Shown here: in pieces, positions 45,242-54,740 of the stretch
Position numbering within the stretch: the stretch's first letter is position 1
How the letters are laid out: every line of letters begins with the position of its first letter
Assembly (NCBI RefSeq): GCF_015687155.1
Contig: NZ_JADPQF010000004.1
Span: 1-64,000, forward strand
Length of the DNA: 64,000 nt
From: Aliikangiella sp. G2MR2-5
Lineage (GTDB): Bacteria; Pseudomonadota; Gammaproteobacteria; Enterobacterales; Kangiellaceae
Direction of reading: 5' to 3'
Position numbers and translations under genes: made by a program
The notes under the pieces: model-generated
Told to the model about the DNA's origin: nothing
Seen by the model: the letters and a program-made list of their open reading frames with translations, nothing else
Databases searched by the model: none

Positions 45242-45294
45242 TTTACAAATTATGATTACAAATGTAATACTAACTAATAAATTACATGCGTAAT
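45242..45294 (+). promoter_or_regulatory. blaI promoter with twin BlaI-type operators
   Basis: A promoter with TTTACA (45242-45247) and TAATAC (45265-45270), spacer 17 bp, carries the palindrome ATTACAAATGTAAT (45255-45268) between its boxes. A second copy, ATTACATGCGTAAT (45281-45294), follows with centres 26 bp apart. Both fit the TACA-N2-TGTA core bound by BlaI/MecI dimers. The same arrangement occurs at 52149-52199. Confidence 0.75.
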
Positions 45295-45311
45295 CAAAAT
45301 AACACTTAGCT

Positions 45312-45692
45312 ATGAAAATCAGCGACTCTGAAAAATATATCATGGACCTCTTGTGGCAATCGTCGCCACTATCTGCAAAAACAATTATTGGCCAACTCGA
45401 TCCTTGTCTGGAATGGCAAGATAAAACAGTGAAAACATTAATCAATCGCCTATTAAAAAAAGGTGCGATTGACTTTGAAAAACAAGGTAGGGAATATCTC
45501 TATTTTCCAGTATTGAAAGAGGAAGACTATATCATTGATGCCAGTGAAAATTTTGTAGAGCGCGTTTTCAAAGGTAATGTCAGTTCATTGATTGCAGCAT
45601 TCGCCAAAACTGACAAGCTTTCATCCAAAGATATCGAAGAGCTTAAAGGTCTGGTTAATCAGCTGGACTCAGCAGAAGGAAAGAAAAAGTGA
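45312..45692 (+). CDS. BlaI/MecI/CopY-family repressor
   Basis: The 126-residue protein has the winged-helix domain of the BlaI family (SDSEKYIMDLLWQSSPLSAKTI, LEWQDKTVKTLINRLLKKGAI, EYLYFPVL) and a C-terminal dimerisation helix region where BlaI proteins are cleaved. It is predicted to bind the twin palindromes upstream and thereby repress its own operon. Its stop overlaps the start of the M56 peptidase gene by four bases, the standard blaI-blaR coupling. Confidence 0.93.
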   Translation: MKISDSEKYIMDLLWQSSPLSAKTIIGQLDPCLEWQDKTVKTLINRLLKKGAIDFEKQGREYLYFPVLKEEDYIIDASENFVERVFKGNVSSLIAAFAKTDKLSSKDIEELKGLVNQLDSAEGKKK

Positions 45693-46924
45693 TCGAAACC
45701 ATCGCCGAGTACTTTTACTATAAGCTGGCAGGTATCTCATTTCTAATTCTGCTCATACTCTTCATACGTCCCTTTATTGTTAAGTACCTAAGTGTCAGAA
45801 CTTCCTATCAACTATGGCTTTTGATACCTTTGTTTTTACTTTTCCCCAACTTCGACTTTGTCGCAGCTTCTTCAAATGGCAACAGCATGTTTTTTGCCAG
45901 TCAAGTGAGTCTGATTCCATCGATAGAGAAGCTCGGAAACCAGATTGATGGCAAGTTCATTTATCTTGCTCTTGGTATCTGGCTTGGAGGCTTCGCTTTT
46001 TCTTTAGGTCGTTATTTCATTGGTTATTATCAATTAAACAAATCTCTAACTGACTACTCATATCAGCCACAAAGTCCTCTACTACAAAAAATCATCAGCA
46101 ACGCTCCTGCTGGTTTTAGGCTAACCCAAAGCAGGTTAGTTAATTGCCCAGGGATATTTGGGATCACAGAAGCCAAGATCATACTTCCGAGACGCTTTGA
46201 AGAAATGAATGTTCTACAACAGGAGATTATTCTGTGTCATGAACTTTTTCATTTTCAAAGACGTGATCACTTAATCAATCAATTTCGTAATATTTTCAAA
46301 TGTATCTTTTGGTTTAACCCGGTAATCTATGTTGCTGATAAATATTTTGAGGCTGATCAGGAGCTTTCTTGTGATCAGGGGGTATTGGAAGCTCAATCCG
46401 AGATCGATCCAAAAGACTACGCAATGACACTACTAGACGAAGCGGTGGCATTTAATTATCAATTACCATTTAGCCAATGGAATTACTCCAAGCTTGTTAA
46501 AAATAGAATAATGATGATTGGCAAAAGTAAATATCGAGCCTGGCATAAATGGCTGCTGTTACCTTTTGCCTTGATATCGCTAGGTTTCACCAGTTTGATT
46601 GTCGCTCAAAACAATGGAGCAATTCAGTCGGAAGGTCCTGTTCCGGTCAAGGTAATTCAACCAGACTATCCACGTGAAGCCGTGAATAACGATATTGAAG
46701 GAGAGGTTAAATTTAGTTTTGATCTGGATAATGATGGAACTCCCAGAAACCTGAAAATAGTCCACTCCATACCGCATGGGATATTTGATAAAGATGCTAC
46801 TAAAGCAATCAAACAATGGCGCTTTGATACAAAGAGCAATGCAAAGACAAACTTAAAGTACACTCTACAGTTTAGACTTCCGGATGACTGGAAAGAAATT
46901 AAAAAAGATATTTTGAAAAGGTAG
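45689..46924 (+). CDS. M56 BlaR1-like membrane peptidase with C-terminal TonB domain
   Basis: The 411-residue protein (GTG start, overlapping blaI by GTGA) has four membrane helices (about 13-31, 38-52, 91-112, 288-306). A cytosolic M56 zinc site HELFH is at 184-188, with the third ligand in EADQELSCD near 221. In BlaR1 the extracytoplasmic C-terminus is a penicillin-binding sensor; here it is a TonB-like domain (317-411: PVKVIQPDYPREA, IEGEVKFSFDL, KAIKQWRF, YTLQFRL). The M56 domain probably cleaves the repressor upon a signal. TonB-domain M56 proteins are known, but the signal is not. The domain is closely similar to the free protein at 52236. Confidence 0.9.
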   Translation: MIETIAEYFYYKLAGISFLILLILFIRPFIVKYLSVRTSYQLWLLIPLFLLFPNFDFVAASSNGNSMFFASQVSLIPSIEKLGNQIDGKFIYLALGIWLGGFAFSLGRYFIGYYQLNKSLTDYSYQPQSPLLQKIISNAPAGFRLTQSRLVNCPGIFGITEAKIILPRRFEEMNVLQQEIILCHELFHFQRRDHLINQFRNIFKCIFWFNPVIYVADKYFEADQELSCDQGVLEAQSEIDPKDYAMTLLDEAVAFNYQLPFSQWNYSKLVKNRIMMIGKSKYRAWHKWLLLPFALISLGFTSLIVAQNNGAIQSEGPVPVKVIQPDYPREAVNNDIEGEVKFSFDLDNDGTPRNLKIVHSIPHGIFDKDATKAIKQWRFDTKSNAKTNLKYTLQFRLPDDWKEIKKDILKR

Positions 46925-46935
46925 TTGTACTTCTT

Positions 46936-47455
46936 ATGCTATCTTCTCTTAGCTATAAAAAAATTCCTGTTGATACTTTCGCTAAGTTATTACACTAGTA
47001 AAAGTATCAACTCGGATTATCTTGACGACAGTTATTCGGATCGTCTGGAGCTTGCCAAAAATCTATTGGGTGCACAACGCCTTTATTTTGACGCATCAAG
47101 TTGTGACGAAGCAAAATTAGAAAAAATTTCACATGGGATTCAGTTTGTGCCGCCCGATCCAGGCTAAGAACTATCTCGAAGTTTTCTTGGTGCAATTAAC
47201 GAATTTAATACAAGAAGAACTAATAATATTGGTCATGCTTCATCGATACACCTTAACGTCGCTTGTTCCGGAAGTCGTTCAAGATTAGCTGCAGCGGTAC
47301 TCCAGAAAGAATTACAATTACTTGGTGACAATTTTCTAAAGAATGTAACGATACTCTTTATTGGCAATATGAAAGATCAAGCTATGATTAAAGATGATAC
47401 TGAAGCTAAGGGGGGAATTTTTTTGTTTGCGAAAACACCGGAAAAAACCGAGTAA
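46936..47455 (+). pseudogene. Unidentified gene with in-frame UAA and probable frameshift
   Basis: Twelve bases after the M56 gene, an ATG at 46936 starts a frame (MLSSLSYKKIPVDTFAKLLH) that soon stops. A different frame continues LLGAQRLYFDASSCDEAKLE and GIQFVPPDPG, hits TAA at 47165-47167, and resumes for 95 codons (SRSFLGAINEFNTRRTNN, VACSGSRSRLAAAVLQKEL, VTILFIGNMKDQ) to a TAA at 47453. The two halves keep protein-like composition on both sides of the stop. A seven-A run near the start could explain the frameshift. I do not recognise the family. Confidence 0.5.
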
Positions 47456-47499
47456 TATCATCTGATTTAGTACTATCTGACAAGATTAATCGGGATATT

Positions 47500-47521
47500 C
47501 CCCTTCCTTTTCAGGAAGGGG
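47500..47521. terminator. Hairpin between convergent genes
   Basis: CCCCTTCC (47500-47507) and GGAAGGGG (47514-47521) form an 8-bp stem with a 6-nt loop. There is no T tract on either side, so it is a weak terminator at best. The arms resemble those of the terminator at 32358. Confidence 0.35.
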
Positions 47522-47531
47522 ACCATTCGAA

Positions 47532-49334
47532 TTAAACTTCACCATCACGGGCGATATAATCATCCACCATCCGTTCGAGAATGGTCATAGGTACAGCACC
47601 GCTTTTTAATACGACATTATGGAATTTACGAATATCGTATTTGTCGCCTAACGCTTTTTCAGCCTTTTCTCTTAACTCAAGAATTTTAAGCATCCCGACT
47701 TTATAGGCAAGTGCCTGACCGGGCCAAACAATGTAACGTTCGATTTCCGATTCAACGTCTGTCATAGCCAGTCCAGTGGTCGAAGCCATATAATCAATCG
47801 CCTGCTCTCGAGTCCAACGCTTGTGGTGAATGCCGGTATCAACAACCAATCTAACTGCGCGCATTAACTCAGCCTGTAGTCGACCAAGATCACTGAAGGG
47901 CTCCTGTTGATAACCTTGTTCCCACGCCAGTCTTTCTGCATAAAGTGCCCAGCCTTCAGAGTAGCTGGTAAAGCCGATGAAATTTCTGAACATCGGCAAG
48001 CCTTCCAGCTCAGTTTTGATCGCAATTTGAAAGTGATGACCAGGGATCGCTTCATGATAAGCCAGAGTCCGCATACTGAATTTCGGAGTAGCTTTAATAT
48101 CATAAAGATTGGCGAAGAAAATTCCCGGACGTGAACCATCGATAGAAGGCCCCTGATATGATCCACCTGCAGCAGTTTTTTCGCGATACTCAGGAACGCG
48201 TTTCACTTCAACACCTGATTTGGGCATAATGTCGAAGACCTTATCCATGCCCGCTTCAACCTCAGTAATCATTGCTCGATAGTCAGCTAAAATCTGCTCA
48301 CGACCTTCGTCAGTATCAGGATACAAAAACTTGGGGTCTTCACCGAGTTCATTCATTATTTGGCCTACAGATTTACCACTGTATCCCTGAGATTCCAAAA
48401 TGGCTTCCATTTCAGCAACAATACGATCGACTTCAACCAAGCCAAGCTGATGAAGTTCTTCGGCGGTATAATCAGTGGTCGTTACCGAACGAATGCGATG
48501 TTGATAATATTCTGCTCCATTTGGAAATTTCCACACCCCAGCATTGCTATTAGCATCATCTTTCAGATTTTCGAAAAATTGAATATAGCGATCATACGCG
48601 GGCTGAACAACAGCTTCCATCTGAGCAAGCATTTGCGCTTTCAGCTGGCTTTTTTCCTCTTCGCTAAGATCAGATAGCGCATCGACTTTCTTATTGAAGT
48701 CTTTCACCAAAACATTTTCATTCAGCTCAGGATCTCGAATATTGTGAAGATTTTCTAAAACTTTGCTGATGATAAAGTCAGGCGGAACTACACCATGCTC
48801 TTGCTCCTGCTTAACCGACTCAAGAGTATTATCAAAATAACTACCTATTTGTGAAATTCTGGAAACATAATCCTCTGCATCACTACTGTCTTCAACCCGA
48901 TGCATATTAACCATAAAGTTGATAATTCCCTGATAACTCCCTCCTCGCTGAGTGACACTGTAGCCATTGTAACGGTACTTGTGAGCATCCATTTGATCTT
49001 TTAGGAACCAGTCGAGAATATCGTAGGAAAGTAACTCCTGGCCCTCCAGGCCTTCCCGCTCATACTCCTTCAACTGCTGGTAATCTTTCTTCAGCAACTC
49101 AAAAGATGCTTCATTCGCCGCAATAGAGTTGTCGTTTAGCTCTCCATATCGATACTTCACCCCTATATTTGTCAGCATCTGTGGGTTTTCCAGCGCAAAC
49201 TCAAAAAAGATCTTGTCGTAAAAGTGACCAATAAAGAAAGGTCTGAACCAGATGAGGTTAATTAAGAAAATAGAGAGCCCGATAAAGCCAACAAGCAATA
49301 TTCGCTTGCTGTATTTCCATATTGTTGATTTCAT
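47532..49334 (-). CDS. DUF885 zinc peptidase-like lipoprotein or membrane-anchored protein
   Basis: The ATG at 49334 follows GGGAAA and gives 600 residues (the frame is open to 49361). An N-terminal hydrophobic helix (about 8-30) anchors or exports the protein. The DUF885 catalytic region reads YHEAIPGHHFQIAI, a HExxxGHH zinc site, with the downstream glutamate in YSEGWALYAERLA. Family members behave as M1-like carboxypeptidase/aminopeptidase enzymes in the envelope, but few are tested. It is transcribed towards the pseudogene after the M56 gene. Confidence 0.88.
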   Translation of the reverse strand: MKSTIWKYSKRILLVGFIGLSIFLINLIWFRPFFIGHFYDKIFFEFALENPQMLTNIGVKYRYGELNDNSIAANEASFELLKKDYQQLKEYEREGLEGQELLSYDILDWFLKDQMDAHKYRYNGYSVTQRGGSYQGIINFMVNMHRVEDSSDAEDYVSRISQIGSYFDNTLESVKQEQEHGVVPPDFIISKVLENLHNIRDPELNENVLVKDFNKKVDALSDLSEEEKSQLKAQMLAQMEAVVQPAYDRYIQFFENLKDDANSNAGVWKFPNGAEYYQHRIRSVTTTDYTAEELHQLGLVEVDRIVAEMEAILESQGYSGKSVGQIMNELGEDPKFLYPDTDEGREQILADYRAMITEVEAGMDKVFDIMPKSGVEVKRVPEYREKTAAGGSYQGPSIDGSRPGIFFANLYDIKATPKFSMRTLAYHEAIPGHHFQIAIKTELEGLPMFRNFIGFTSYSEGWALYAERLAWEQGYQQEPFSDLGRLQAELMRAVRLVVDTGIHHKRWTREQAIDYMASTTGLAMTDVESEIERYIVWPGQALAYKVGMLKILELREKAEKALGDKYDIRKFHNVVLKSGAVPMTILERMVDDYIARDGEV

Positions 49335-49631
49335 ATATTTCCCAACCGTTATTGTTATCAATTAAAACTGCATATATAAGCAATACCATTGCCAACTTGT
49401 TAATTTCATAAAAATCAAATACTTAATAAACAGCTTGCTATTGAGGGCTTTCAAATTAACATAAACTTGGTCAATTAGACCAACCTGATAGCAAAATTAG
49501 CCTGAAAATCTGTATTTACCTTTATGATCTGAGAAGTGTTTCTTGAGCCAAACTGAAAGAGACTGTATTGTAGACCGATAGTTTTGACTCAATATTCTGT
49601 CCTATTTTGGGAACACTTATCAGGAAACCTC

Positions 49632-51386
49632 ATGGCGGGGAATAACGAAAATACTAATGGCCAGATAACAGACAGTGTCACATCCGATACTGATTCCGCA
49701 GAGGCGCTTGTTGAACTGACACGAATTGGCCAATCCCTGTATGCCAAAGAAAACAGGCAAGGGTTTATTAAAGCCAAGGCAGACGTAGATAAGGCACTAG
49801 CCGAAAACAAAATTGTCTTAAAAAATCGTTTTGTACTCCAGTCTGCATTGGGAGCTGGAGGAATGGGAACTGTGTATAAAGCACAGGACTTGCGCAAGGT
49901 AGAAGCCAGAGATACCAATCCCTTCGTCGCAGCCAAAGTACTTAACGCGGATTTCAAGGAACACCCCGACGCTTTTATCGCCCTGCAACGGGAAGCGAGT
50001 CGCTCTTCCCGTCTGTCTCACCCCAATATCGTAACAGTGCATGATTTTGATCGAGATGGCGATACGATTTATATGACAATGGAGTTGTTAGAAGGCGAAG
50101 ATTTGGATCAGATTCTTAAACGTCACGCCAAAAAAGGACTAGGCAAAGAAAAAGCGTTTAAAATTCTACAAGATATTTTCAGTGCATTAAGCTTTGCTCA
50201 CCAGAAAGGCATCATCCACTGCGACCTGAAACCAGCGAATATTTTTGTCACCAAAGAGGGTGCCAAAATTCTCGATTTTGGAATCGCTCGACTAGCACTA
50301 AAAAATCAGGATCACTTTGACGCAGGAACTATCGGCGCTCTGACACCCAGTTATGCGAGTCTTGAAATGTTTTCCAATGAGGATCCCAGTCCGAGCGATG
50401 ACGTTTACGCAGCCGCAATAATTGCCTATCAATTATTATCAGGAAAGCATCCCTATCAACAAAAATCAGCTCCAGCTGCGTTATCGATGGAACTAGAGCC
50501 CCCAATGATCGAAGGACTGTCTAAACGACAGTGGCGAGCATTAAGTAATGCTTTAAAATTAAAGAAAACAGAACGAACGCAGACTATTGAAGAGTTTTCC
50601 GAGGCTCTTCTTGGCAAACGTCAGCTTTCACAAGCAATTCTTTTGTCGAGTCTGATAGCAGTCTCAGTAGGCGCAATTGCTTACACTCAATTTTTCAATC
50701 ATGACCAAATTGACTCAGTAATACAAAAGACTCTCGCAACAGCCGAGGAATGTCACCTTCAGAAAGATTACGAATGTGTACAAAGTAGTGTAAATGCCAT
50801 TTTAAAAATCAAACCCGAACACCAGCTCGCAAATGAATTGCTCAGCAGAGTCCAGGTAGAACAGGAAAGCCAAAGAGTCTTGTTACTGTTGCAGGAAGGT
50901 CAAAAGTGCTTAGCGGCAAAGAGTTATCAGTGCGCAGTTGAGAAGTCAGATGAAATTCTGGCTGTTAGTGCTGATAATATTGAAGCAACTAAACTGAAAG
51001 CCGTCGCATTGGAAGCGATGCAACTAATTAGCACACAATTAAAGCAGGCGTTAACAGAAGCGGAGACGTGTTTACAGAAAAAGAACTACCAATGTACTAT
51101 CGATAATTCCACTCTCGCGATAAAAATTGACCCGACTAATGCGCAAGCAGTTTCTTTAAGACAAAGCGCAATCATAGCCGGGGATCAGCAAAAAGAAGCA
51201 TTATTAAAAGCTAAAGATATTTTAAACGATGGAAAAAAATGTTTTGCAAAATATGACTATAGCTGTGCAATAGCCAAGTCAGAATCAGCACTAGCATTTG
51301 TACCAGACTATCAACCCGCGCTAGAATTGAAAAAATCGGCGGAAAAAGCGATAGCCGATGCGAAAAAAGCCATCCGCATCGAATAG
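49632..51386 (+). CDS. Ser/Thr protein kinase with four cysteine-paired TPR-like repeats
   Basis: The ATG at 49632 follows AGGAAA and gives 584 residues (frame open to 49584). The Hanks kinase domain (about 65-320) has GAGGMGTVYKAQD, Lys in AAKVL, HCDLKPANIF and DFGIARL; HCD marks a non-RD kinase. One membrane helix (about 335-355) leads to a C-terminal part of four repeats of about 45 residues. Each repeat carries C-x7-C with a Tyr two residues before the second Cys (CHLQKDYEC, CLAAKSYQC, CLQKKNYQC, CFAKYDYSC), as in disulfide-clamped TPR repeats in the periplasm. A lipoprotein gene follows 16 bp downstream. Confidence 0.9.
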   Translation: MAGNNENTNGQITDSVTSDTDSAEALVELTRIGQSLYAKENRQGFIKAKADVDKALAENKIVLKNRFVLQSALGAGGMGTVYKAQDLRKVEARDTNPFVAAKVLNADFKEHPDAFIALQREASRSSRLSHPNIVTVHDFDRDGDTIYMTMELLEGEDLDQILKRHAKKGLGKEKAFKILQDIFSALSFAHQKGIIHCDLKPANIFVTKEGAKILDFGIARLALKNQDHFDAGTIGALTPSYASLEMFSNEDPSPSDDVYAAAIIAYQLLSGKHPYQQKSAPAALSMELEPPMIEGLSKRQWRALSNALKLKKTERTQTIEEFSEALLGKRQLSQAILLSSLIAVSVGAIAYTQFFNHDQIDSVIQKTLATAEECHLQKDYECVQSSVNAILKIKPEHQLANELLSRVQVEQESQRVLLLLQEGQKCLAAKSYQCAVEKSDEILAVSADNIEATKLKAVALEAMQLISTQLKQALTEAETCLQKKNYQCTIDNSTLAIKIDPTNAQAVSLRQSAIIAGDQQKEALLKAKDILNDGKKCFAKYDYSCAIAKSESALAFVPDYQPALELKKSAEKAIADAKKAIRIE

Positions 51387-51402
51387 CCATGGAGATCTTG
51401 AA

Positions 51403-52038
51403 ATGAAGTTTACCAAAACAACGATAATCGCGATAAGCATTCTTTTTATAATGTCGGTCGCAGGCATGGGCTGTAAGAGTGACAATATAAAGCGAATTGC
51501 AACGGTAGCTGCTGTTGCGATTGCTGCCAAATTACTCTATGACATGTATATCGACTACAAAACTGAACAAACCCGTGAAGACAAGCAAGTCGTTGATAAG
51601 TATAAATCCCAATATAATTCACTACCTGATGAGCCGGTTCTAGTGTCCTATGAATCTAGTATCAAGCCAGGCGAGGTGGTCAGTGCCGGAAATAAAATCT
51701 CAATACAATCGTCGCTGGAGGTAGTCCGAGGCAAAGCCAAAGAAACCCTGGAAATAAAAGAGCAAATAATCATCTATGACAATGAGGATCCCACCAAAGA
51801 ACTCAAAAGTCTGGTAAAAGTAGTTAACAAAGAAAGTCAGCGCTGTGGAGCTTTTAATAATGAGTTTACTTTTACACTACCTAAAGGGATGCCACAGGGG
51901 GTTTACCCAATCAAAACAAAAGTGATAGTCGACGGAAAAGCCTTTGCGCCGGTAGATAGCCGCATGCAGCTGGTAATCAATACCAATCAAGAGCAACCTT
52001 TAGAACATGCTCAATATCGACTAGCTAAAGCTCATTAA
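51403..52038 (+). CDS. Probable lipoprotein partner of the kinase
   Basis: The ATG at 51403 gives 211 residues with a basic start, a hydrophobic core and Cys after GMG (lipoprotein signal). A second hydrophobic stretch (VAAVAIAAKLLYDM) follows soon after, and then a beta-rich domain (VLVSYESSIKPGEVVSAGNK to GKAFAPVDSRMQLVIN) that looks Ig-like. It is 16 bp after the kinase, so the two form an operon. Family unknown. Confidence 0.72.
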   Translation: MKFTKTTIIAISILFIMSVAGMGCKSDNIKRIATVAAVAIAAKLLYDMYIDYKTEQTREDKQVVDKYKSQYNSLPDEPVLVSYESSIKPGEVVSAGNKISIQSSLEVVRGKAKETLEIKEQIIIYDNEDPTKELKSLVKVVNKESQRCGAFNNEFTFTLPKGMPQGVYPIKTKVIVDGKAFAPVDSRMQLVINTNQEQPLEHAQYRLAKAH

Positions 52039-52148
52039 ATCATACCAGAGAGGATTGAGGCGCAGTAATGCGTCTCATCTATCTCATTTAAACTCACGGT
52101 CCTCTTCCCACAAAACAAATCCAGCAACCATCTTCCTGTAAAACAAAC

Positions 52149-52199
52149 TTGCCAAATAGAATTACAAGTGTAATACTTAACACGGATTACAAACGTAAT
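52149..52199 (+). promoter_or_regulatory. Second BlaI-type operator pair, before the TonB-domain gene
   Basis: TTGCCA (52149-52154), a 16-bp spacer and TAATAC (52171-52176) form a promoter. ATTACAAGTGTAAT (52161-52174) lies between its boxes and ATTACAAACGTAAT (52186-52199) follows, centres 25 bp apart. Sequence and geometry copy the blaI promoter at 45242-45294, including the shared TAATACT and CGTAATCAAAA segments. The BlaI homologue should therefore repress both promoters. Confidence 0.75.
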
Positions 52200-52235
52200 C
52201 AAAAAATAACATTAAGTAAATTAGGGAACGAATCT

Positions 52236-52589
52236 ATGAAAATGATCACCACAAAACTGTCTTTAATGCCGCTTTTATTTGGACTGGCTTTTTTCTTTCT
52301 AACTTCACTAGCCGGTTATGTCACTGCTGGCGCTCATGTTGAAGCCATACCGGTGAAAATCGTAAATCCCGAATATCCCAGACGGGCAGCAGTTGAAGGG
52401 ATTGAAGGTAGTGTTACCTTTGAGTTTTCTCTAAACAAAAATGGAAGCCCGACAAATATCAAAGTACTCAATGCTATTCCGGATCAGACCTTTGTTGTTC
52501 AGGCTAGTAAAGCTATCAAACAATGGGTATTTGAGGTCAACAACTCACAAGACAATAAATATCGTTATACCCTGGAATTTAAGCTCTAA
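52236..52589 (+). CDS. Free TonB-domain protein, paralogue of the M56 sensor domain
   Basis: The ATG at 52236 follows AGGGA and gives 117 residues: a signal peptide or anchor (residues 1-32) and a TonB C-terminal domain (PVKIVNPEYPRRAAVEGIEG, LNKNGSPTNIKVLNAIP, KAIKQWVF, YTLEFKL). It matches the C-terminal domain of the M56 peptidase at 45689 along its whole length. It lacks the Pro-rich arm with which true TonB spans the periplasm, so it cannot energise receptors in the usual way. It lies 99 bp upstream of a TonB-dependent receptor gene and under a BlaI-type operator. Confidence 0.85.
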   Translation: MKMITTKLSLMPLLFGLAFFFLTSLAGYVTAGAHVEAIPVKIVNPEYPRRAAVEGIEGSVTFEFSLNKNGSPTNIKVLNAIPDQTFVVQASKAIKQWVFEVNNSQDNKYRYTLEFKL

Positions 52590-52688
52590 TAGAGAACTCT
52601 CGGGAATGTCAATTTTGTGCCGGCTCATAGTTCTGGATAACTCTCTTGGGCTCTACTAAGCTTTACTAAGACTTAGTGGCGCCTATCT

Positions 52689-54740
52689 ATGATGCTTAAA
52701 CAAAAAACTCTTTCTATTAGCTACAGGTTCCTCTTCCTTGCTTTTTGTGTGGTTTATCTATGTCTACCTGCAAAAGCGGAAGAGGAAGAACCATTTCAGC
52801 TTACTCAATTGACTTTGGAGGAACTTCTCAAAGTAACCGTCACAACTGCAAGAAAAACCGAGAAACCGGTTTCTAAAACAGCAGCATTTGTCACGGTAAT
52901 CACCAAGCATCAAATTCGCTCAAGTGGCTGGCGAGATCTGTCTGAGTTACTTAATGCCCAGGTGGGCTTTTATACTTTCAGTGATCGAATTTATAACTTT
53001 ATCATTCCACGAGGTCACTATCAGTCGAATGATCCAAACTCTAGAGTATTACTACTTTTAAACGGTCATAGCGTTATCGAGAGCTTTGGCTATTTCAACG
53101 GACATTTGCCATCAGTAGACATCAATCATATTGAACGCGTTGAAATTGTACGTGGTCCCGGCTCAGCCACCTATGGAACCAATGCAATGTTTGCGGTAAT
53201 TAATGTCATAACACATGCGCCATTAAACAAAGATTCACAAAATTTTTATTTTGAAGCCGGAAGTGGTGAATGGGGAAAGACCGCTTTTAGAGGAGATTGG
53301 CATTTAAAAGACGGTTACGTATCGATTATGGGTGGTCTTTCTAGAGGAGAAAAGACAAGTCTTTCCCTTGAAGAATATCAAGATTCGATACATCCATTAC
53401 AGGGCCAAACTATCAAAGAAGCTAACGCAGTGAAAAATAGAAATTTTTATTTCGACGCCAAGATTGAAGACTGGAGAGTTTCTGCCTATCTGAATCATCG
53501 AATTAAAAATGTACCCACCGGAATATTTGGCGGAAGCATGGACAATCGTTTTACCTTTTTTGAAGATACCAATACTTTTTTTGAGTTCCAGAAAGAATCC
53601 AGAATCGCTAAGGATAACAGAGCAATTATTAGGGTTTTTTATGATTATTATGAATTCAAAGGAAGATTTTATTATATTTCAGATCCTTCCAGTGTGTTAG
53701 GGCCTCCTTACGAAAGTGAGTTTAATCGAGTGACCAATACAAGCCTGGGTGTCGAAGTATTATTTGATAAAAAGATATCTGATGACATTCAATTATTATA
53801 TGGTGCTGAGTTTAAAAAATATGGCGACGTTGATTTCGTTTATGTCTCTGAAAATGATCCGCTGCAATTGCTAAATGAAAGATTCAGTTTTGATCCTGAA
53901 GAGTCAGTTTTTTCGGCACATGCTTCCATTGACTATCAATGGAATGCCTTTTGGAGTTCAGTTGCAGGACTACACTATGATCACTACCAGACTGTCGGAG
54001 GACAATTTAGTTTTAGAGCCTCAGCAGTATATTCTCCAACTCAGAGATATCAGTTGAAACTTTTGTATGGAGAATCTTTTCGGGCGCCAAATAGTTGGGA
54101 ATTAAATGGCGGCTTTTATCTGGTAGGTAATCAGCAACTACTGCCTGAGAGTGTCGGTACTTATGAAGTTTTGTTTGACTATAGTATTAAAGATAATTGG
54201 CATTGGATATCAAGTTTTTATGCTTTTGAAACAGAAAAAACCATTTCACAATCAACTGATGGCGTCCGCTTTACTAATGGTGCCGGAGTTTCGGGAAAGG
54301 GCTTTGAGTCGGAACTTAAATACTCGAAGGGGATGCAGTCTGGCTATTTAAATTATTCCTACACTAAAGTAGAAAATGATCTGACCGGAGCTCGAACTTC
54401 ATTCTATCCCGAGCAACAGTTGAAACTCGGATATACCTACCAGTTTTCCAATCAAATCCGGTTTCATATGGAGTCACAGTGGACAGACTCTCGTCAATAT
54501 GCAAATCCTGAAGTAGGCGAGCTACCGCCTCACCAGATATCAAATCTGAGCTTAACAAATATTCAGGTTTTACCCAGACTAACCCTGGACATCAGCATAT
54601 TTAACCTATTTGATGAATATTATGAACACCCATCCTTCACTTCTGATTTAGCAAGCTTTTATATTAATCAGGATTTTCCCGTTCATGATATACCTGCAAA
54701 TGGGAGAGAAACTCTTTTAAAGTTAATTTATCAATTTTAA
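52689..54740 (+). CDS. TonB-dependent outer membrane receptor
   Basis: The 683-residue protein has a signal peptide (1-30), a TonB-box-like start (LEELLKVTVTTARKTEKPVS), a plug domain (SSGWRDLSELLNAQVGFYT to VEIVRGPGSATYGTNAMFAVINVI) and a 22-strand-type barrel with aromatic-ended strands, finishing with the C-terminal Phe required for BAM insertion (LLKLIYQF). The ligand is unknown. The plug motif resembles colicin-I/vitamin-B12-type receptors of the small subfamily. No Fur box was seen; its likely control is read-through from the BlaI-regulated promoter at 52149. Confidence 0.9.
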   Translation: MMLKQKTLSISYRFLFLAFCVVYLCLPAKAEEEEPFQLTQLTLEELLKVTVTTARKTEKPVSKTAAFVTVITKHQIRSSGWRDLSELLNAQVGFYTFSDRIYNFIIPRGHYQSNDPNSRVLLLLNGHSVIESFGYFNGHLPSVDINHIERVEIVRGPGSATYGTNAMFAVINVITHAPLNKDSQNFYFEAGSGEWGKTAFRGDWHLKDGYVSIMGGLSRGEKTSLSLEEYQDSIHPLQGQTIKEANAVKNRNFYFDAKIEDWRVSAYLNHRIKNVPTGIFGGSMDNRFTFFEDTNTFFEFQKESRIAKDNRAIIRVFYDYYEFKGRFYYISDPSSVLGPPYESEFNRVTNTSLGVEVLFDKKISDDIQLLYGAEFKKYGDVDFVYVSENDPLQLLNERFSFDPEESVFSAHASIDYQWNAFWSSVAGLHYDHYQTVGGQFSFRASAVYSPTQRYQLKLLYGESFRAPNSWELNGGFYLVGNQQLLPESVGTYEVLFDYSIKDNWHWISSFYAFETEKTISQSTDGVRFTNGAGVSGKGFESELKYSKGMQSGYLNYSYTKVENDLTGARTSFYPEQQLKLGYTYQFSNQIRFHMESQWTDSRQYANPEVGELPPHQISNLSLTNIQVLPRLTLDISIFNLFDEYYEHPSFTSDLASFYINQDFPVHDIPANGRETLLKLIYQF

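Follow-up and report, generated by a model that had tools for sequence, protein, structure and literature searches.

A candidate BlaI/M56 induction circuit with a TonB C-terminal sensor domain, and a matching promoter before a free TonB-domain gene, in Aliikangiella sp. G2MR2-5

In the staphylococcal BlaI-BlaR1 and MecI-MecR1 systems, a Penicillinase_R winged-helix repressor is encoded with an M56 membrane protease, and both repressors use TACA/TGTA operators, according to the available text of PMC7253601. A signal at the extracytoplasmic domain of BlaR1 switches on the M56 protease, and this protease removes BlaI; the beta-lactam sensors BlaR1 and MecR1 are the M56 sensor proteases presented with a known signal in the accessible part of PMC7593790. 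The copper repressors CopY/CopR belong to the same repressor family, and two operators precede the pneumococcal cop operon; for CopY, O'Brien et al. reported that the ten-base core TACAnnTGTA is required without being sufficient, the flanks being decisive (PMC7253601, in its available text). Here, we describe a locus of Aliikangiella sp. G2MR2-5, located in positions 1 to 64,000 of contig NZ_JADPQF010000004.1 (this whole stretch of 64,000 nucleotides is called the window), which encodes a BlaI-family repressor, an M56 peptidase, a free TonB C-terminal domain (TonB_C) protein and a TonB-dependent receptor. Compared with the staphylococcal systems, the M56 sensor of the window carries TonB_C instead of a penicillin-binding domain, and the target would be a free TonB domain, perhaps together with the receptor, instead of a beta-lactamase or PBP2a. 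We consider it fairly probable that these genes form a BlaI/M56 induction circuit, with the TonB C-terminal domain as sensor, that governs its own promoter, the promoter of the free TonB-domain gene and probably the receptor.

Two promoters lying 7 kb apart, before blaI and before the free TonB-domain gene, bear one tandem pair of ATTACAnnTGTAAT-type palindromes, a sharing already proposed in the initial annotation (Table 1). The first palindrome of each pair occupies the promoter spacer, starting 13 nt (TTTACA, 45242) or 12 nt (TTGCCA, 52149) from the start of the −35-like hexamer, and its 3′ end overlaps the −10 box, so the annotated position between the −10 and −35 boxes is right for the spacer and not strictly right at its downstream edge. 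The annotated distance of 25-26 bp to the second palindrome was confirmed as 26 bp at 45242 and 25 bp at 52149. When the window was scanned with up to 2 mismatches, 43 matches were obtained (shuffle mean 27), which were perfect only at the four operator places, and the perfect single pattern occurred at five places in the whole genome (5.02 Mb), four of them being the window operators. The pair pattern occurred only twice in that genome, both times in the window, and its reversed control gave 0. By a weight matrix of blaI promoters, which included the window's own blaI sites, the four operators scored 19.8-22.7 bits and the next window place 8.5 bits; the fifth perfect single site (C1:641889) scored 11.9 bits and was unpaired. 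Single sites with at most one mismatch were not above the reversed control in the genome (63 and 65 vs 83 and 74), and a search by strict pairs found no wider regulon in the window genome beyond the two window pairs. Chance origin of the palindromes was rejected on the basis of the genome pair count and the pair count in 295 genomes, each against zero reversed controls.

Among 75 sites taken from BlaI-gene promoters, which by their selection all have the outer TTAC and GTAA, A followed TTAC in 87%, the outer A was present in 98% and the base before the outer A was G in 68%, counting both strands; ATTACAnnTGTAAT fits this operator family better than ATTACAnnnGTAAT. A TACAnnTGTA-type operator is present at the own promoter of the window blaI, and two of the four window sites read CGTA on one side, which is permitted by the consensus RNYKACANNYGTMRNY given in the available text of PMC7253601. 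By our reading, the sites at 45281 and 52186 with their flanks match this 16-base consensus fully and the other two at 15 of 16 positions. CopY binds metal through CXC motifs, whereas the window BlaI contains just one cysteine, lacks a CXC motif and is paired with a protease.

The same pair was searched for in 295 genomes of the order, and the strict pattern gave 43 distinct pairs in 39 genomes, with 0 for the reversed control. Thirty-seven of the 43 stand before blaI followed by an M56 gene, three precede a free TonB-domain gene (the window, G165 and G061), one, the second pair of G213 (L091:15684-15971), precedes a broken blaI relic, and two (G293 and G016) stand before other things. In f1, the family of the window genome, the pair was found in 29 of 40 genomes (control 0). 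A looser pattern found it in 52 of 152 genomes of family f6, with a reversed-control match in 6 genomes (55 pair places, of which 47 loci were read), and, across 369 genomes sampled evenly from the class, in the window genome and in two others belonging to a single other genus, with a control match in 1 genome. A larger collection of 96 distinct pairs was partly gathered via an M56 search and is not a sample, so the 43 strict pairs are the fairer count; 18 of its 90 blaI-M56 pairs had no visible TonB domain, 16 of them with a cut M56 frame and two (L170 and L171) with a whole one. Furthermore, among 97 distinct sequences upstream of BlaI genes that contain one or more of these palindromes (one paralogue, L201, included), 95 had TTG 11-14 nt before the first palindrome, the exceptions being the window blaI promoter and L025, which both carry TTTACA there instead. 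The 52149 promoter, with TTGCCA at 12 nt, follows the usual layout of BlaI-gene promoters. Because 37 of the 43 strict pairs precede blaI-M56 and 95 of the 97 sequences share the TTG spacing, a lineage of blaI-M56 genes has, as judged from these comparisons, the pair as its conserved operator, and the promoter at 52149 reproduces this layout. One locus counted among the 37 (G234, L102:9463-10638) has a 231-aa gene without Pfam match between the operator pair and blaI-M56.

The identities of blaI, the M56-TonB gene, the free TonB_C gene and the receptor gene were all borne out by translation and Pfam. The Penicillinase_R winged-helix domain of the window BlaI was recognised with 114 bits against a cut-off of 22.6 (PF03965), and the M56 reading frame, which starts at 45689, overlaps blaI, which ends at 45692. 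As annotated, the M56 peptidase beside blaI has a TonB C-terminal domain (PF05569 and PF03544 matches); its HExxH motif is HELFH, and TonB_C covers residues 324-396, close after the final hydrophobic helix. A penicillin-binding sensor domain was not found in this protein, TonB_C being the only Pfam domain behind M56 and the blaR1_generic score being 87 bits against a cut-off of 400. The named records matched by the window M56 protein were a Pleionea genome and a Kangiellaceae metagenome-assembled genome. Databases contain many M56-TonB_C fusions, especially from Bacteroidota, and the fusion itself is therefore not new.

TonB energy transducers have an N-terminal anchor and a long proline-rich spacer across the periplasm. 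The M56-TonB proteins and the free domain share the TonB_C fold (PF03544) with them but lack a long spacer, four proteins of genus g2 excepted. From hydrophobicity, the linker before the TonB domain was estimated at about 18 aa in the window M56 and at 11-42 aa in 76 of 80 M56-TonB proteins, and the TonB domain of M56 would therefore stay near the inner membrane. The remaining four (L105, L196, L197 and L198), all from genus g2 of the window family, have linkers of 237-326 aa with 12-20 prolines, a spacer like that of true TonB, and their domains might reach the outer membrane.

The free protein begins with a hydrophobic, signal-peptide-like N-terminus that by our reading ends in an A-x-A-like site, with 43 residues before TonB_C. 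Its structure model had a block mean predicted local distance difference test (pLDDT) score of 82-92 over residues 41-100, and its best Protein Data Bank (PDB) match was 2gsk_B from the BtuB:TonB complex, with a template modelling (TM) score of 0.86 by target length; the best fold matches were TonB domains, including those of BtuB and FhuA complexes. Judging from its sequence, which has no long spacer, the protein probably does not serve as an energy transducer. The initial annotation had described the small protein as almost a stand-alone copy of the sensor domain. This does not agree with an identity of 43-44% to the window M56 domain (44% over 80 residues), as other TonB domains are closer: a short TonB protein of G173 (52%), the M56 domain of G296 (51%) and a 207-aa TonB_C protein, L180, of the same genome (46%). 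For this reason, recent duplication of the sensor domain was rejected as its origin.

Outside the window family, the operator pair with the usual promoter layout was found before a free TonB-domain gene in two of nine genomes of family f16. The two encoded proteins (L092 and L094) have 147 aa, are 94% identical to each other, belong to one genus and are located in contigs other than those with blaI-M56; the nine f16 genomes yielded no additional close copy. Since the window and f16 free domains are only 28% identical, the combination of operator and free TonB domain was apparently recruited independently in the two families. We believe that this recurrence, together with the operators, supports autoregulation by BlaI and BlaI control of the free TonB-domain gene, as far as sequences can indicate it.

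Based on these observations, we propose that BlaI would bind the tandem ATTACAnnTGTAAT operators at its own promoter and at the second promoter 7 kb away. The TonB domain of M56, held close to the inner membrane, would be engaged or released in the periplasm, whereupon M56 would inactivate BlaI and both promoters would open, inducing blaI-M56 and the gene at 52236. That M56 cleaves BlaI, with induction of both promoters, is inferred from the BlaR1 precedent. The second promoter would then yield a TonB domain, soluble or with a loose anchor, that lacks the long spacer of energy transducers, and probably the receptor too. Most likely the free domain would target the contact that the sensor domain makes, either by competing for the TonB box, as a decoy providing negative feedback, or by carrying a TonB box to the membrane-proximal sensor, as a relay; competition, as put forward in the initial annotation, is possible, and a relay role is equally compatible with the data.

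Outside the window family, the C-terminal ends of the M56-TonB proteins suggest what such a contact may be. Many M56-TonB proteins of families f6, f7, f15 and f16 carry VERIKVT, IEKIDVT, VEQIKVT or similar sequences 7-14 residues before the stop, VEIIKVRGE being another tail type (examples are M56-TonB L213:4565-5863, L093:9890-11104 and L103:8347-9594, and free TonB L092:4086-4529 and L094:8639-9082). Among the N-terminal segments that precede the Plug domain of receptors in these families' genomes are VERIEVTGS, VERIQVTGS and IERIEVKGN. Tails were scored against VERIEVTGS for 80 of 94 M56-TonB sequences, those cut by a locus end, duplicated or from loci outside the family table being dropped, and compared with 437 control tails taken from the loci of the scored proteins. 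Fifty of the 65 tails of the four families exceeded the 99th percentile of the controls (f6, 40 of 46; f16, 6 of 7; f7, 4 of 9; f15, 0 of 3), a percentile that serves as a description and not as a blind test, the consensus having been picked with M56 tails and receptor boxes already known. Their mean score was 20.9, compared to 7.8 for shuffled tails (sd 0.45, 200 shuffles). None of the 14 tails of f1, the window M56 included, and not the single tail of f13 exceeded the threshold. Among free domains, the two operator-driven ones of f16 carry the tail (scores 20 and 26), whereas that of the window scored 5 and none of five other short TonB-domain proteins scored had it. Of 30 loci, all but L255 gave a readable receptor N-terminus; 3 of these 29 contain VERIEVTGS exactly, and 16 exceeded the same threshold, including 1 of 5 from the window genome.

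In TonB complexes, the strand preceding this tail is the one that pairs with TonB boxes. The tail could therefore mask the TonB-box-pairing edge of the TonB domain, and its presence on M56-TonB sensors of four families is, as a feature of these sequences, a new observation. Another group of M56-TonB paralogues (L200:4920-7049, L279:873-2903 and L275:1358-3079) ends in VTGSRLNYR, KTGSRIKRL and RTGSRICR, recalling receptor N-termini; L200, the one member of the group that was scored, was not above the control tails against VERIEVTGS.

There are five BlaI-family genes in the window genome, and another paralogue, or no BlaI at all, might govern the second promoter. The other four adjoin M56 genes whose products differ in the C-terminal part, with no Pfam match there for C36 and C35, TonB_C in a protein of 709 aa for C1 and an M23 peptidase for C32. 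Upstream of them were found TCTACAnnTGTAGA twice (C36), a palindrome of GACAnnTGTC type (C32), no recognised palindrome (C1) and, at C35, one partial TTACnnnnGTAA site of 6.5 bits. Of the five genes, the window blaI alone is preceded by the complete operator pair, and we regard control of the second promoter by a paralogue, or by no BlaI, as highly improbable. Since the upstream palindromes of the other four are different, partial or absent, the window BlaI is the best candidate, and the likely regulator by its sequence context, for both promoters. For the receptor, the choice is much closer. The annotated order, a small TonB-domain gene followed after 99 bp by a TonB-dependent receptor gene, agrees with Pfam and coordinates, and co-transcription is inferred because the two genes share a strand and a 99-bp gap in which no sigma-70-like promoter or terminator was recognised by a crude scan, whose promoter count (24 vs 23.5 in shuffles) is at chance level. 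It is plausible and the weakest part of our reading. Alternatively, BlaI could control the free TonB-domain gene only, and the receptor, there by chance, could have its own unrecognised promoter, a possibility we take seriously and place only somewhat short of probable. The closest receptor homologues in the family, G309 (44%) and G273 (43%), have neither operator nor TonB gene nearby; in L092 and L094 the gene after the operator-driven free TonB gene is on the opposite strand and not a receptor; and a hairpin (52647-52685) lies just before the receptor start, without U tract, with z = -2.0 and 8 of 200 shuffles as stable. A conserved receptor-TonB unit was rejected, as G309 and G273 are unlinked to both, and conservation of the arrangement in relatives, whose absence the initial annotation had listed as part of what would count against its proposal, is lacking for the receptor link (G309, G273, L092 and L094) and present for operator and free domain. 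The homologues and the hairpin weigh against the circuit as we propose it, as do further results: no second pair before a TonB-domain gene was found by the strict pattern in any other of the 40 genomes of f1, where the sole other second pair, that of G293, is directed at a DUF6624 gene; short proteins with a TonB domain occur frequently and for the most part lie outside the regulon, only 3 of 13 examined having the operator and ten lacking it (L310, whose TonB-like frame of 72 aa lies at the end of a contig, being excluded); looser patterns gave the reversed-control matches mentioned above (6 of 152 and 1 of 369 genomes); and the AlphaFold model of the window M56 was poor (pLDDT 51.8) and was not used, its topology being taken by homology.

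A circuit of this kind could respond to different signals. In our proposal, the sensor may read TonB-TonB-box contacts, and a more general form would be that a BlaR1-like protease class senses outer-membrane transport by bearing the TonB half of the joint between TonB and TonB box. In several families a single chain would combine the two halves, a receptor-like box behind the TonB domain could mask this domain in cis or in trans, a receptor box or the TonB of the cell would swap partners and thereby switch the protease, and a free TonB domain under the same repressor would tune the exchange; we put this forward as tentative, possible rather than probable. Instead, the sensor could monitor TonB availability, energised TonB pulling M56 via its TonB domain or, elsewhere, its box-like tail, which would report the load of the TonB system and not one ligand, with the free domain damping the response. 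The 50 tailed M56-TonB proteins out of 65 and the two tailed free domains of f16 agree with this, but the tail is missing in the window family (0 of 14), in the window M56 and in the window free domain, and so, unless the tail was lost, TonB availability is not the general mechanism here; we consider it unlikely. TonB domains can also bind peptidoglycan, and the sensor could report peptidoglycan or envelope damage, nearer to classical BlaR1, with an incidental receptor link. Paralogous M56 proteins in the same genomes bear M23 peptidase domains, and the operator pair of G016 and a beta-lactamase-family gene are 61 bp apart, although the hexamer there points the other way. However, the best fold matches of the free domain are TonB domains, those of BtuB and FhuA complexes included, and a free-domain target points to TonB contacts, so an envelope sensor also seems improbable to us. 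If sensors of the type we favour do read TonB boxes, they would represent a further route, besides FecIRA-type signalling, that couples outer-membrane import to transcription.

In FecA-FecR-FecI type signalling, an outer-membrane TonB-dependent receptor is likewise coupled to transcription through proteolysis (PMC7593790, accessible part). In contrast, the regulator here would be BlaI/M56: no sigma or anti-sigma factor was found among ten proteins around the locus scanned with Pfam, and Pfam found only Plug and barrel and no signalling domain in the window receptor. No description of a BlaI-linked M56-TonB sensor was found in the open-access literature, which leaves most subscription papers aside, and the system is not described in the available portions of PMC7593790, PMC10470040, PMC7253601, PMC5294843 and PMC10710014. 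What stands out is that a conserved, easily recognised operator links a BlaR1-like protease family to the TonB domain.

Table 1. Genes, promoters and operators of the locus, with positions in the window
Feature	Position	Strand	Details
blaI-M56 promoter	45242..45271	+	TTTACA; operator 1a within spacer, overlapping −10
Operator 1a ATTACAAATGTAAT	45255..45268	.	perfect palindrome
Operator 1b ATTACATGCGTAAT	45281..45294	.	26 bp downstream of 1a
blaI	45312..45692	+	126 aa; Penicillinase_R repressor; PF03965 E=5.5e-33
M56 membrane metallopeptidase	45689..46924	+	411 aa; PF05569 1.4e-40; PF03544 2e-17
Free TonB-domain gene promoter	52149..52177	+	TTGCCA, 17 bp, AATACT
Operator 2a ATTACAAGTGTAAT	52161..52174	.	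perfect palindrome
Operator 2b ATTACAAACGTAAT	52186..52199	.	25 bp downstream of 2a
Free TonB C-terminal domain protein	52236..52589	+	117 aa; PF03544 3.9e-16
TonB-dependent receptor	52689..54740	+	683 aa; PF00593 9.1e-24; PF07715 3.9e-13

The 5.3 kb between the M56 gene and the free TonB_C gene contain a DUF885 gene on the opposite strand, a Ser/Thr kinase gene and a gene for a 226-aa protein without Pfam match. Directly 3′ of the M56 gene, the sequence at 46925-47530 appears to be a decayed coding sequence; it contains a single weak site resembling the operator, at 46989 (8.5 bits). PDB matches of the receptor were generic (colicin I receptor and BtuB) and point to no particular ligand. M56 proteins with an M23 peptidase or ankyrin repeats at the C-terminal part were also observed (L202:5857-7305, L204:5292-6665, L276:1467-3110 and L277:1986-3524), and L202 adjoins a BlaI gene with a GACAnnTGTC-type palindrome upstream. 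The operator pair of G016 (L089:8544-9893), 61 bp from the start of the beta-lactamase-family (PF00144) gene, has a promoter-like hexamer that points away from it, to a 55-aa frame. The pair of G293 (L086:9236-9811) faces its DUF6624 gene by promoter direction, and that gene, whose product has a signal-peptide-like N-terminus, is a possible further target of a regulon of this type.

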